From contig JAMPDR010000021.1 in assembly GCA_023665555.1 (NCBI GenBank), positions 1-35,829 of the forward strand: a DNA stretch of 35,829 bases, read 5' to 3'. This stretch comes from Ruminococcus sp. (GTDB lineage Bacteria; Bacillota; Clostridia; Oscillospirales; Acutalibacteraceae). The notes under the pieces were generated by a model. It made no database searches, was not told where the DNA came from, and saw nothing but the letters and a program-made list of their open reading frames with translations. Position 1 is the stretch's first letter; every line of letters begins with the position of its first letter. Both the position numbers and the translations under genes were made by a program. Of the stretch, positions 30,807 through 35,829 are shown one piece after another.

Positions 30807-32090
30807 ATGAAAAAATCTTCGGTAACAGTAATATGTATATTGATAGTAGTATTCACCGTTATCGTTTCAATTTCGGTGAAATATTCAAGCGTCACACTTC
30901 TCAACGGATTCGGCATCAAATCAACAACTGATGAATTAAGCATCGGTGACTACAGCGGATATGAAACAACCGCGTACGAAACAATTGCATACACGGTTGA
31001 AAACACGTATGAACTTACCTACCCTCTCAGTGCAAAAACATTTGAACCGGACATGTCTTTTGTTAAACCGATTGGCAGAACCGTTTATTACCAGGGAGAA
31101 AGATGGATGTCCATGTCAGGCAGCGGAATTGAATTCAACTGCAAAGCTGATTCCATTGACATCACACTTCTTTCTGAAAACAATTCATATATCACTTATA
31201 ATCACAAGCCGAGAATTGCAATTTTCGCAGACGATCTGCTTATATTTGAGCAAAGTCTTGACAAAGATGAAACAACAGTTCACATTGATCTTTCTGACCT
31301 TGGCGGCAAAGCGGTTATCAGTGTGATTAAACTTTCGGAATCCATGCATTCATGTTTTGGCATCGGAAACATCACTGTTTACGGCGGCGAGGATATTACT
31401 CCGACCGCTGATAGAGCGCTAAAACTTGAATTCATAGGCGATTCTATCACTTGCGGCTATGGAATTGACGAAACGAGAAGCAATGCTGCTTTTTCAACAA
31501 GAACGGAAAACTTCGCAAAAAGCTATGCGTACCTGACAAGCAAACTTCTCGATGCTGATTACAGTGCAATTGCTTTTTCCGGATACGGTGTTGCATCAGG
31601 ATTTACAACAAACGGCAGACGCAACGAGGATGCAGTAATTTTCAAATATTATGACAAATCCATCACTAACAAACAAAATGATGATTATTTTCCGGGCGAT
31701 GAATGGGACAGTCAATCATACATTCCGGACGTTGTTATAATCAACCTTGGAACAAACGATGCATTATATTGCCGAACGCCGACACGCAGAACCGAGTTTG
31801 TTTCAGAATACAAACGGTTGCTGACTCTTATAAGAGAAAAAAATCCCGACGCATATATTTTATGTATTCTCGGCGATATGAACAATTCACTTTTCCCATC
31901 AATCGAAACTGCAATTGAAGAATACCAAGCAGAAAGCTATGACTACAGAGTTTCAAGCACAAAAATTGATTTCAAAATGGGCGAAAACCCAATTGTTATT
32001 GCAGGTCACCCAGGTGCTGAATCGAACATCATTGCCGCGAACGACCTTGCAAATGAGATTATAAAACTCAGAAATGACGGGAAGGTATAG
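30807..32090 (+). CDS. Membrane-anchored CE2-like SGNH esterase
   Basis: This 427-residue protein has an N-terminal hydrophobic signal or anchor (6-24), then a low-complexity Thr/Tyr/Glu linker. A jelly-roll domain (about 90-195, ending GIGNITVYGG) is followed by an SGNH hydrolase: S213 in EFIGDSITCGYG, N317 in NLGTNDA, and H401 in AGHPG. This two-domain layout with EFIGDSITCGYG is that of carbohydrate esterase family 2, which removes acetyl groups from xylan or mannan; some members also bind cellulose. As in CE2, no Asp is evident beside the histidine. It would act outside the cell beside the other glycan enzymes here. The ribosome binding site is GGAAAGGA; a terminator follows. Confidence 0.88.
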   Translation: MKKSSVTVICILIVVFTVIVSISVKYSSVTLLNGFGIKSTTDELSIGDYSGYETTAYETIAYTVENTYELTYPLSAKTFEPDMSFVKPIGRTVYYQGERWMSMSGSGIEFNCKADSIDITLLSENNSYITYNHKPRIAIFADDLLIFEQSLDKDETTVHIDLSDLGGKAVISVIKLSESMHSCFGIGNITVYGGEDITPTADRALKLEFIGDSITCGYGIDETRSNAAFSTRTENFAKSYAYLTSKLLDADYSAIAFSGYGVASGFTTNGRRNEDAVIFKYYDKSITNKQNDDYFPGDEWDSQSYIPDVVIINLGTNDALYCRTPTRRTEFVSEYKRLLTLIREKNPDAYILCILGDMNNSLFPSIETAIEEYQAESYDYRVSSTKIDFKMGENPIVIAGHPGAESNIIAANDLANEIIKLRNDGKV

Positions 32091-32122
32091 TTGGAGAATC
32101 CAATAAATCAATAGCGAATAAT

Positions 32123-32151
32123 AAGGCCCTTCGGTAAGCTGAAGGGTCTTT
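32123..32151 (+). terminator. Terminator of the CE2-like esterase
   Basis: AAGGCCCTTC / GAAGGGTCTT stem (one G-U pair), with an 8-base loop and TTCT after it. The palindrome TGTCATGACA follows at about 32160. Confidence 0.8.
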
Positions 32152-32217
32152 TCTGTCGTTGTCATGACACACTGCATTTATTCGGAAAAATCACAACAAA
32201 TTGACCATAACATGTTA

Positions 32218-32664
32218 TTATCCATTTACTCTTATCAATTTGCTTCCGCTGCGCATCTCATTTTGAGAAAAATCAAAAAGAAGTGCCAATTTTTTATCAT
32301 ATTGCACAAGTCTGCCGACTGTACGGTAATGATATTGTGAATCCAACTTCCAAGATTCAAACAACTGTCTTGCAAATTGTGTACACTCAATTCGATTATA
32401 TTTGGAGTTTTTATATCCTCTTATCCACTGCACTGCTTCTCTTTCCTTAGACGGAATAGGCCTGATTGCTATACATTTTTCCTTTTCTTTTATACGAACT
32501 TCTATACTTTCGCAGTTATTCAAGGCATCATGTGAAGCCGCATTAAATGCAATAGCTGTATTCCAAATGGTCATCGTAGGTTCTGCTTGATGACAGAAAT
32601 ATTTTCTCTGTACAACTTGAAAACCTTCCAACGAAACTGTTTTAATATCTATATCAAATGCCAT
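32218..32664 (-). CDS. Stand-alone recombinase-associated domain protein (short)
   Basis: This 148-residue protein has no known family that I recognise, but it is homologous to residues about 391-520 of the serine recombinase upstream and to the 197-residue neighbour. Shared points in order are: L-x-G-F-Q-V-V at 12-18, P29, I38-x-F-N41, CIAIRP at 64-69, a W near 80, YHYRTVG at 111-117, and LLFDF at 128-132. It lacks the PE-x-W tail found in the other two. It starts 17 bases after the 197-residue gene with AAAGGCAG as ribosome binding site, so all three are one unit. It is the last gene of the unit. It may be a partner subunit or accessory DNA-binding protein of the recombinase; this is inference. 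Confidence 0.8.
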   Translation of the reverse strand: MAFDIDIKTVSLEGFQVVQRKYFCHQAEPTMTIWNTAIAFNAASHDALNNCESIEVRIKEKEKCIAIRPIPSKEREAVQWIRGYKNSKYNRIECTQFARQLFESWKLDSQYHYRTVGRLVQYDKKLALLFDFSQNEMRSGSKLIRVNG

Positions 32665-32681
32665 TATATCTCAACTGCCTT

Positions 32682-33275
32682 TCATACGAAAATATACCCT
32701 TCGGCTAAATCAATTTTATATGATTCTTCATGTTTTTCAACAGGAATACCAAAACACTCACGCCAATCTTCAGGAAGATATGCCCGACTTCTTCTTTTAC
32801 CGACATTTACAAAAAGTTCAAAATCGTTCAATTTAAACAGATACAAAGCTTCATCACCTGCCACGGCGGGTTTACCTAACATTTTATAGCGATATCGTTT
32901 ATCCCAATTCATGAGTTCAAAAAGTTTCGCGGCAAATATTTGGCATATCATATCTCGGTTTCGTATTTCCTTTTCTCCGCCGCCTGTTGCCCATCTTAAA
33001 GAATTCGGTGTATCTTCATCACAAGGACGAACTATCAGTCTTTTCTGTTCAGGATGTATCAAAAGCTGGATGTGAGTAATGCTCGGAAATTTTCTAAGGC
33101 ATGCCATATTGAATTTGATTCGATTTTCCCACACAGTAACAGCAGGCTCTCTTGAATGCGCAAATAATTCTGCTTTTGTTACCTGGAATCCCGCAAGGTT
33201 TACTATTTCTCGTTCTTCAGATTCTGAGATTTTTTCCTGTATATTCTTAAAATCTTGTATATTTTTTTCATTCAT
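32682..33275 (-). CDS. Stand-alone recombinase-associated domain protein (long)
   Basis: This 197-residue protein has a charged helical start (1-25) and then the same domain as in the recombinase C-terminus: NLAGFQVTKAELFAHSREPA at 26-45, IKFN at 53-56, HIQLLIHPEQKRLIVRPC at 68-85, RW at 94-95, YRYKMLG at 128-134, and LFKL. It continues into the tail AYLPEDWRECFG at 165-176, which parallels AYICPEEWGDSFG in the recombinase. It overlaps the recombinase stop by 8 bases, implying translational coupling and roughly matched production. No catalytic residues are recognised. It is best seen as an obligate partner of the recombinase. Confidence 0.85.
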   Translation of the reverse strand: MNEKNIQDFKNIQEKISESEEREIVNLAGFQVTKAELFAHSREPAVTVWENRIKFNMACLRKFPSITHIQLLIHPEQKRLIVRPCDEDTPNSLRWATGGGEKEIRNRDMICQIFAAKLFELMNWDKRYRYKMLGKPAVAGDEALYLFKLNDFELFVNVGKRRSRAYLPEDWRECFGIPVEKHEESYKIDLAEGYIFV

Positions 33276-35103
33276 CTTTTTTACCTGCTTTCTGCTTTAA
33301 GGTTTCTGCACACTTCATTACTTCAATATCATTCAAAATTTCAAATGAAAGTTGCCCGTCAATAGGGCGACTTTTTTCGTTCGCCCCTAAGCTGGTATTT
33401 GGCGGAAGATAATACAATATATTATCTAAACTAAAATTGTAAAACTCCGATCCAAAAGAGTCGCCCCATTCCTCAGGACAAATGTAAGCTTTTTTATTTA
33501 TCGTTTTATCATCTCCTCCTGTTTTTTCTTTAATAGTTACATATGGCATTGCTTCTGATAGATTGAATATTATAATCTTGTCATTACCTTTTTCAATAAA
33601 TGTACCTGTAACCTTATACATGTAATCAGGAAACCATTCCATAATTTGATATAATACACTACAGAAATGTGAACAAGCTATAACTTTAGTAGATATTGGC
33701 TGATTCATATTTTTATGCCACGGAATACTATTCATATCTTTTTTCGAACATGCTCTAATTGCAATTTTCCGTTCTGTTGAATGAAGCAGAAGCTGAATAT
33801 GACTGGCAAAATCAAATTTCCTTGCGCACACGCAATTGAAGACTATTTTTTCTTTACTTAAAGATATAGCAGGAAGTTCAGAGCGAGATGATAAAAAATT
33901 ACCTCTTACAACTTGATATCCTGATAAATCAAACTTGCTGAAATAGTTTTTCATTATATTTGTCTTCTCCTTATATATCTGAATACTGTTAGATGCATTA
34001 TAGTAAATACACGGATCGTCACTTGCCCAATGATGATTGATTGGTACATACCCGGAAAGTGCCCCACCATCAATAACATGCATAATCGGAACACTACCTT
34101 TATAGCCATGCTTTCTGTTTTCGAACAACTCCTGCACCGCATCAAACTGTTGTACCGTTATAATAGCCTCATGGACATCCGTATATAAATATTGATCCCT
34201 GTCCTGTCTGTTTTTTCGCTTTTTATGTTCAAAAACATCCGATGTAAATTGTTTCCATGTCAGCACATTTCCGCAATATCTTTCATTTTTGAGAATATAT
34301 GAAACAGATCCTTCACTCCACTTCGTATTACCCAGCTTTGTTTCGCATCCGATATCCTCCAATATATTGCAAATGCTTTTTATTGAAAAGCCGGACAAAA
34401 AGGCATTATAAATAAATCGTACAACCTCGGCTTCAGATTCTTCAATCTCAAGTTTTCCGTGCTTTACATAATTTCCAACTGCATCACGCGGTCTTCGATA
34501 TCCAAATAATTCCGGTGTTAAAAGCTTTTTACTTTTAAATCTTTCTTTCAAAGACCAGTTCATACTTTCACTTTTCTTTATGGATTCCTCTTGCGCGAAT
34601 GTTGCTAATATTGTCAGTTTCAATTCAGAATCCTCTGAAAGAGTGAACAAGTTATCCGTTTCAAAAAATACACCAACCGGATGATTAAGGTTTTTTAACT
34701 TTCTAACAAGGGAAACACAATCCACAAGGTTTCTGGCAAATCTTGACACACTCTTAGTAACAATCAAATCAAATTCACCATCTATACAACGGGAAATCAT
34801 ATCATTAAATTCATCGCGGTTTTTTAAAGATGTTCCGGATATCCCTTCATCAGCAAATATATGTTTCAATTCCCAATTTGAATGATTGCTTACAAGCCGT
34901 CTATAATGATCCTGCTGTAACTCAAATGAAGACAGTTGCTCATCTCTATCAGTTGATACGCGACAATATGCACAAGTTCTAAATATATGATTACTGCCAA
35001 AAAGATCCGCTTTGTCCTTAGCGGGAATAAACAATGTTGCTCCTGATTCGCCTTTAATTATACCTATATTGGATTCACGCTTATCAAAATTATTGCCATG
35101 CAT
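33268..35103 (-). CDS. Serine recombinase with an atypical C-terminal domain
   Basis: The 611-residue protein has a resolvase catalytic domain at about 40-185 (S50 in CRVSTDRDEQ, GISGT, and R121 and R124 in SVSRFARN). A recombinase DNA-binding domain follows at 199-330 (LFGYRRPRD, SVSYILKNERYCGNV). The Cys4 zinc ribbon usual for large serine recombinases is absent; instead there is GGALSGYVPINHHW at 346-359. A domain at 391-525 follows (GYQVVRGNF, IVFNC, HIQLLLHSTERKIAIRAC, YMYKVTG), then AYICPEEWGDSFG. The same domain occurs alone in the two following genes. AGAGG lies 7 bases before ATG. It probably integrates or excises a mobile element, with target unknown. Confidence 0.9.
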   Translation of the reverse strand: MHGNNFDKRESNIGIIKGESGATLFIPAKDKADLFGSNHIFRTCAYCRVSTDRDEQLSSFELQQDHYRRLVSNHSNWELKHIFADEGISGTSLKNRDEFNDMISRCIDGEFDLIVTKSVSRFARNLVDCVSLVRKLKNLNHPVGVFFETDNLFTLSEDSELKLTILATFAQEESIKKSESMNWSLKERFKSKKLLTPELFGYRRPRDAVGNYVKHGKLEIEESEAEVVRFIYNAFLSGFSIKSICNILEDIGCETKLGNTKWSEGSVSYILKNERYCGNVLTWKQFTSDVFEHKKRKNRQDRDQYLYTDVHEAIITVQQFDAVQELFENRKHGYKGSVPIMHVIDGGALSGYVPINHHWASDDPCIYYNASNSIQIYKEKTNIMKNYFSKFDLSGYQVVRGNFLSSRSELPAISLSKEKIVFNCVCARKFDFASHIQLLLHSTERKIAIRACSKKDMNSIPWHKNMNQPISTKVIACSHFCSVLYQIMEWFPDYMYKVTGTFIEKGNDKIIIFNLSEAMPYVTIKEKTGGDDKTINKKAYICPEEWGDSFGSEFYNFSLDNILYYLPPNTSLGANEKSRPIDGQLSFEILNDIEVMKCAETLKQKAGKKDE

Positions 35104-35313
35104 TGCTATGCCTCTTTGTTATTCATTCTAAATACCAAATACAAATTCTATCATTTAATATATGACATAGTATTCAACAAGTGTTTCAGTACATAGATAT
35201 TTTACAACAATTACGCAATTTTGTAATGAAAAACACCACCATAATTTATATAACATACTGAAATATGTTACCCCATTTTATTGTGTTAATCAGCCTTCTC
35301 GGAGGTACATATT
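35104..35313. promoter_or_regulatory. Divergent control region between recombinase and regulator
   Basis: These 210 AT-rich bases separate two divergent genes. Within them are ATTAC / GTAAT at about 35210-35227 and a palindromic site at 35251-35270. A possible plus promoter is TTGTAA (about 35221) with TTATAT (about 35246), 19 bases apart. No clear minus promoter could be chosen. An att site may lie here but cannot be proven. Confidence 0.4.
35251..35270. promoter_or_regulatory. Candidate operator of the Cro/CI-type regulator
   Basis: TAACATA-ctgaaa-TATGTTA is a perfect 7+7 inverted repeat over 20 bases. It overlaps or follows the likely -10 region of the regulator gene and lies between the divergent genes, the usual place for a self-regulating repressor site. 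Confidence 0.55.
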
Positions 35314-35619
35314 TTGAATAAAGATTTATACGAACTCAATCAAATTAAAGAATTAGTAGAAAGAATTGACCAACTGCGAGTTGAACATAATTATTCCATT
35401 TATAAACTTGCTGTTAAAGCCGGACTTTCTGTTAACACTCTAAAATATCTATATAAAAAGAAAAGCTTTCCAAATATTCGTACACTCTTCAATATTTGTG
35501 AAGCCTTTAATATTCCGATTTGGCTGCTATTTTATAAAGATGCAGACAACTTATATTTAACAAAAAGTGAATATCGGCTTATTAAGAACTACAAAAATCT
35601 ATCAGAAACCGGTAAGTAG
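35314..35619 (+). CDS. Cro/CI-type (XRE) helix-turn-helix regulator
   Basis: This 101-residue DNA-binding protein has its HTH_3 domain at residues about 15-72: IDQLRVEHNYSIYKLAVKAG, the recognition helix LSVNTLKYLYKKK, then FPNIRTLFNICEAFNIPIWLLF. The rest is a short acidic/basic tail. It starts with TTG at 35314: GGAGGT lies 7 bases upstream and there is no ATG in frame. It diverges from the recombinase, and a 20-bp inverted repeat lies between, so it probably represses itself and perhaps recombinase expression, as in phage- or ICE-like modules. Its 3' end overlaps the left arm of a hairpin. Confidence 0.85.
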   Translation: MNKDLYELNQIKELVERIDQLRVEHNYSIYKLAVKAGLSVNTLKYLYKKKSFPNIRTLFNICEAFNIPIWLLFYKDADNLYLTKSEYRLIKNYKNLSETGK

Positions 35620-35633
35620 CTGCTGATAGATTT
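35595..35633 (+). terminator. Hairpin overlapping the end of the XRE gene
   Basis: AAATCTATCAG (35595-35605, inside the last codons) pairs perfectly with CTGATAGATTT (35623-35633). The loop is 17 bases and the T run is short (TTTG), so it may terminate weakly. The following 160 bases hold no gene that I can see. Confidence 0.55.
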
Positions 35634-35792
35634 GTCTGAAAACATTAAATAATTCAACTTACGCAACACTGCATCATTGAATTTGCATATCACATAAAAT
35701 ATATCTGAAGGCTGGTTATTAAAGTGAATTGATCGTTTTATATATTTCACTGATCAAAGATGTAGCACCAAATAAAAAGGGCAGTAAAAAAG

Positions 35793-35829
35793 ACCGAATG
35801 TTTCAAGCGTTTAATCTGAAATATTCGGT
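35793..35829 (-). terminator. Minus-strand terminator at the right edge
   Basis: On the minus strand, ACCGAATATTTCA and TGAAACATTCGGT (one mismatch) enclose an 11-base loop and are followed by CTTTTTTAC. This is a typical intrinsic terminator for a minus-strand gene lying beyond the window. Confidence 0.75.

Follow-up and report, generated by a model that had tools for sequence, protein, structure and literature searches.

A serine recombinase encoded with stand-alone paralogues of its own C-terminal domain in Ruminococcus sp. and its relatives

To our knowledge, known serine integrases hold att-site recognition and the control of direction in one chain, with at most one small factor in addition. 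The locus described here lies in a 35,829-nucleotide stretch of Ruminococcus sp. DNA (GenBank assembly GCA_023665555.1, contig JAMPDR010000021.1, positions 1 to 35,829; hereafter the window) and encodes a serine recombinase (R) followed by two small proteins (A and B) built on the same domain as the C-terminal part of R; relatives of the locus have a third such protein (C) after B. R shares the Resolvase (PF00239) and Recombinase (PF07508) domains with large serine recombinases of the phiC31, Bxb1 and TnpX type, but it has no zinc ribbon, carries a new C-terminal domain and is encoded in an operon with two or three stand-alone copies of that domain. Recombination directionality factors are likewise small and encoded together with a serine recombinase, whereas A, B and C are homologous to the recombinase’s own C-terminal domain, occur several at once and are directly coupled to its gene. 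Among the recombinases of the staphylococcal cassette chromosome (SCC), namely CcrA, CcrB and CcrC, CcrB is the best NCBIfam model for R (residues 42-388, E 8e-25; 87 bits, cut-off 900), and the match ends before the new domain. We know of no stand-alone domain proteins for the SCC recombinases; CcrA and CcrB are reported to occur together.

The nearest published parallel that we found for an element with spare recombinases is the gin element of Bacillus cereus, which interrupts a sporulation gene and for which three serine recombinases are reported, with a girA-girB operon, girC and girX (PMC5595907). The girAB operon is reported as dispensable for gin rearrangement, its role being unclear, and girAB is described as two recombinases, not as a recombinase with catalysis-free paralogues of its C-terminal domain (PMC5595907). 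Our literature search found no description of a recombinase with such stand-alone domain partners, in line with the preliminary description of the locus, which had been made from sequence alone and knew of no such system.

The three genes lie on the reverse strand of the window. R (33268..35103, 611 aa) overlaps A (32682..33275, 197 aa) by 8 bp, and A is separated from B (32218..32664, 148 aa) by 17 bp, exactly the coupling that the preliminary description had reported. Its central claim, that one domain recurs in three consecutive genes, is borne out as well. Residues 390-555 of R (33439..33936) match A with a BLASTP E value of 4e-28 (29% identity over 161 residues), while A against B gives 1e-18 and R against B gives 4e-12. 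When the whole genome was searched with the recombinase, the next two genes scored 6e-21 and 2e-6. Profile-profile comparison, based on class profiles of at most 86 homologues each, gave E values of 1e-55 (R-A), 6e-40 (A-B), 1e-34 (R-B), 2e-20 (R-C), 2e-16 (A-C) and 2e-14 (B-C). This sequence similarity is far above chance and identifies R 390-555, A and B as one domain. No Pfam, NCBIfam or PADLOC family matched A or B, and their PHROGs matches were at chance level.

R itself has the domains and active-site residues of a serine recombinase. A Resolvase catalytic domain (residues 45-191, E 1.3e-23) and a Recombinase domain (residues 223-330, E 7.1e-24) are followed by a linker without a zinc ribbon and by the undescribed domain (about 391-545); no Pfam domain was found in R past residue 330. 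The catalytic residues R48 and S50 are kept in all 75 homologues with residues at these positions (one, L132, has a gap) and R121 and R124 in 76 of 76, and all four are intact in the window’s R. That the new domain stands in place of the zinc ribbon, as had been proposed, agrees with the absence of any match to Zn_ribbon_recom (PF13408) in R at E<=1 and with the scarcity of cysteine in the stretch matching R 326-389 (none in 59 of 76 homologues, one in 16 and two in 1). Zn_ribbon_recom was present in 4/4 ordinary recombinases tested, taken from two phages that carry the module. The structure model of R, a monomer prediction only, has a mean predicted local distance difference test (pLDDT) score of 78, with block means of 83-94 over residues 411-520. 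Its helices between residues 332 and 591 reach at most 11 residues, a length to be set against the long coiled coil that large serine recombinases have in their C-terminal part. In all 7 phage records whose annotation was examined, R is annotated as a hypothetical protein.

The module is not rare. It was met in 144 viral stretches of one viral collection, in 20 phage records and, with the window’s own genome included each time, in 12 of 197 genomes of an order-level survey (query A), in 12 of 200 genomes of a same-family survey (R-domain profile) and in only 4 of 398 across the phylum. Each of the 12 order-level genomes has two or three domain matches, and in the phylum survey one genome (G523) has three side by side, with one each in G374 and G275. 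The loci compared below comprise 80 kept of the 144 viral loci, 38 genome loci and the 20 phage records; they fall into two branches, whose counts rest on the A query and include duplicates. Branch I, to which the window belongs, has the order R-A-B-C, and branch II, which includes phage records labelled Candidatus Heliusvirales, has R-A-C. Counted where 1700 bp or more of downstream sequence was available, branch I has three domain genes after R in 50 loci out of 53 and two in the other 3 (the window, L132 and L158), and branch II has two in all 58. Thus the earlier statement that two small homologues accompany the recombinase stands for branch II and not for branch I, which usually has three. 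Small partners are the rule also in the family survey, which is free of the bias of the A query: in 10 of the 11 matching frames of at least 598 aa, taken as recombinases by their length, a separate domain match lies nearby. These counts do not refute the preliminary description, which had named a usual lack of the small genes beside such recombinases as evidence against itself. One operon copy (L140) occurs in a contig titled Spirochaetales.

The upstream and downstream neighbors differ between the branches. Of the 56 branch I loci with room for an AAA_25 gene, 36 have one immediately upstream, against 2 of 60 loci in branch II. After R-A-C, many branch II loci encode a presumably ParB-like protein (about 320 aa; of three tested, none had a Pfam family over cut-off) and another of about 300 aa, which was DUF6551 in the three tested. 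Several unusual arrangements were also seen. In L045 (8256-14828) R-A-C is directly preceded by a tandem row of three more, slightly overlapping genes for serine recombinases (544, 581 and 528 aa). Part of branch II encodes, in overlap with the start of R, a short recombinase-like protein that has no CxxC (L044, 10876-11502), and such short overlapping proteins (about 205-230 aa) also occur in L040-L043, L047, L095, L113, L116, L117, L119, L120, L123, L125 and L126. In L039 (7514-8320) the catalytic start of R is fused in frame to the second half of A, apparently by natural deletion or an assembly fault.

Are A, B and C spare copies or distinct parts? In a tree of 147 domain sequences, whose bootstrap had not settled and in which long branches were flagged, a single branch sets off each of C (100/99), B (100/100) and R (72/99), and A takes 3 changes. 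The four paralogues stay distinct and so seem to have been duplicated before the operon spread; they do not appear to be interchangeable copies. In one genome (G784; L224, 230-1872) the recombinase is 401 aa long and ends short of the domain, which is encoded instead by a separate 146-aa gene with a 4-nt overlap; a domain that serves as a separable recombinase subunit would be expected to allow such a split. Because of the distinct paralogues and this natural split, a mixed complex of R with A and B, as suggested in the preliminary description, is plausible.

Ordinary recombinases commonly occur near the module. Of the loci with wide flanks, 20 of 28 in branch I and 17 of 22 in branch II have another recombinase (at least 380 aa, with CxxC), and therefore R is not obviously the sole integrase of its element. 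A block common to two species representatives at 97% (L155 and L156) splits one gene, which we take to be spoIIID. In L156 (7030-16306; also in L155 and L157) the element measures about 9.2 kb and has the R-A-B-C module inside, an ordinary 515-aa serine recombinase stands at its right end in L156, and the gene halves would join in frame. Five Heliusvirales records (PV036446, PV036437, PV036415, PV036436 and PV036434; L128 and L201-L204) have sequence in common up to a point 2.8 kb upstream of R, ending in ...GAGGTTAAAC(A/G)GG. Past this point four records enter host-like sequence, with a gene that we take to resemble comEC, and the fifth ends. The end of the common sequence is likely a shared attachment site; R, 2.8 kb away, does not adjoin it, nor does the ordinary recombinase pair. 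Solitary chromosomal copies with no other recombinase in their flanks were also found, as XRE-R-A-B-C (L146, L154 and L163), with AAA_25 (L142 and L151) and without a whole C (L158). In another contig of the window’s genome (L183, G000:C89, 1-3646) ordinary serine recombinase frames stand in tandem, one apparently split or frameshifted.

The explanation that we favor, to which we give an even chance, is that R-A-B(-C) forms a multi-subunit serine recombinase with accessory paralogues, with the upkeep of a circular form as the task that we prefer for it. R would supply catalysis and part of the DNA contact, while its C-terminal domain and the catalysis-free A, B and C would sit on the DNA beside or between R subunits, so that together they would recognize and fold the site. 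Dedicated subunits would thereby do the work of the zinc ribbons and coiled coils that ordinary large serine recombinases hold inside one chain. The XRE regulator would govern the unit, which would act as a second recombination system of temperate phages and other elements next to their ordinary integrases. Upkeep of the circular form, e.g., multimer resolution with accessory-site subunits, is preferred because of the coupling to AAA_25 in one branch and to DUF6551 and ParB-like proteins in the other. A more far-reaching version, which we regard as doubtful, is that four paralogous subunits (R, A, B and C) share the task of recognizing the site, assembling on DNA in a fixed order as a dedicated topological filter or target selector, with the AAA_25 protein as a partner in one branch, and that the system has spread via gut phages (Candidatus Heliusvirales) and Clostridia chromosomes.

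Several observations weigh against the favored explanation. Multimer resolution leaves the solitary chromosomal cassettes unexplained, and no recombination site was found. One of the 11 recombinases of the family survey (G726) has no small partner nearby, and the single domain gene of G374 has no recombinase in the stretch read; as the single genes of G374 and G275 show, the domain also has another life outside the recombinase operon. The unsettled tree has to be counted here too, as does the fold. Foldseek of A against the PDB gave no match at E<=0.001, its top rows being the sliding clamps DnaN/PCNA (from E 0.02, probability <=0.3, rmsd about 17 A), and in hhalign comparisons with 21 MraZ proteins 35, 17, 45 and 5 of 60 column shuffles scored equally high for R, A, B and C, respectively. 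A stand-alone 147-aa domain gene was likewise noted in L208 (1414-1857), with no recombinase in the stretch seen.

The single domain genes bear on another explanation, in which A, B, C and the R domain are mainly regulators of transcription or replication of the element and recombination is secondary. It would also suit the neighboring XRE and AAA_25 genes and a resemblance to MraZ, a repressor family, which gave the best PDB superposition (87 residues at 3.4 A, with a weak score). The possible likeness to MraZ and AbrB-like double repeats, a fold of two beta-alpha-beta-beta units, lies in this superposition and in the order of strands and helices, but there is no sequence-profile similarity. 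The 76 members searched matched 20 Pfam families between them, none of these being MraZ, and by sequence profile the domain did not group with the MraZ/SpoVT-AbrB family, no score being clear of the column-shuffled controls. With the constant order behind a recombinase that has an intact active site and a fused copy in nearly all loci, we consider a mainly regulatory role distinctly improbable. The PADLOC defence models matched none of the window’s R, A and B or the C of L130 at E<=0.1; they matched only XRE and AAA_25 proteins (best 3.6e-10 for HTH_VI and 1.4e-5 for mad8).

Two further explanations make R the integrase. R-A-B-C may be that of a self-mobile unit, XRE-[AAA_25]-R-A-B-C, the solitary cassettes being inserted units. 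The intact active site would fit, and the flanks of L146, L154, L163, L142, L151 and L158 share nothing beyond the XRE gene; but neither a common end sequence after C nor an empty site was found, and prophage remnants keeping a regulated operon explain the cassettes equally well. We regard such a unit as improbable. Built-in directionality control, with R as integrase and A, B and C switching between integration and excision in place of a recombination directionality factor, had been the hypothesis of the preliminary description. It draws on the coupling of small genes to the recombinase in nearly all loci and on the five related phage records, in which the presumed right end of the prophage is 2.8 kb upstream of R and a repressor precedes R in the same direction. 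The ordinary zinc-ribbon recombinases or pairs in most wide-flank loci, and the one at the end of the element interrupting the presumed spoIIID, argue against it, and we regard it as unlikely.

The start of C has a bearing on the same question. The window retains only a remnant of C (32178..32225, reverse strand), with an ATG at 32225 and 15 codons before a stop; the first codons resemble C of L130 and L131 (22 of the first 33 bases as in L131, counted by eye), and the overlap of 8 bp with B is as in L130. All three branch I loci lacking C break just past its start (the window at 32178-32225, L158 from 6725 and, less clearly, L132 at about 3454), with unrelated DNA joined after the first codons. 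This recurrence may hint at a recombination site, and an attachment site there, parting C from R-A-B upon integration, would fit directionality control; the sample is small and biased, since a later break would leave enough of C to be counted. On the other side, C is whole and adjacent in nearly all branch I loci, chromosomes included.

The window’s A is 86% identical to that of L130. By comparison with L130, most of C is gone from the window, as is the AAA_25 gene, of which L130 itself has only a short version (161 aa). The ratio of nonsynonymous to synonymous substitutions (dN/dS) between the two loci comes to 0.09 (R) and 0.14 (B); for A, synonymous differences are saturated and nonsynonymous ones few. 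Judged by these comparisons, R, A and B of the window are without decay. Divergently from R, an XRE-family regulator of 101 aa (35314..35619, forward strand; PF13443, E 2.4e-7) has a homologue beside the same module in L130 (DNA match of 35189-35718 to L130 247-779). The region between XRE and R (35104..35313), where relatives have the AAA_25 gene, contains no direct repeats of at least 9 nt and one 16-nt inverted pair at 81%. On the other side, DNA similarity of the module to relatives stops near 32196, and a boundary stretch (32091..32177) with a terminator-like hairpin follows a host gene (30807-32090) that we take to be of the SGNH type. The last 55 bases of the window (35775-35829) recur exactly in a stretch ending in contig C104 (8388-8442). 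A repeat is probably what ends the window’s contig, and with this shared 55-base word at its end the rest of the element is out of view.

If the favored explanation is true, recognition and direction would have been handed to two or three catalysis-free paralogues, and site-specific recombination would gain a new layout. Such a layout would help in explaining the evolution of selectivity and might also serve genome engineering.
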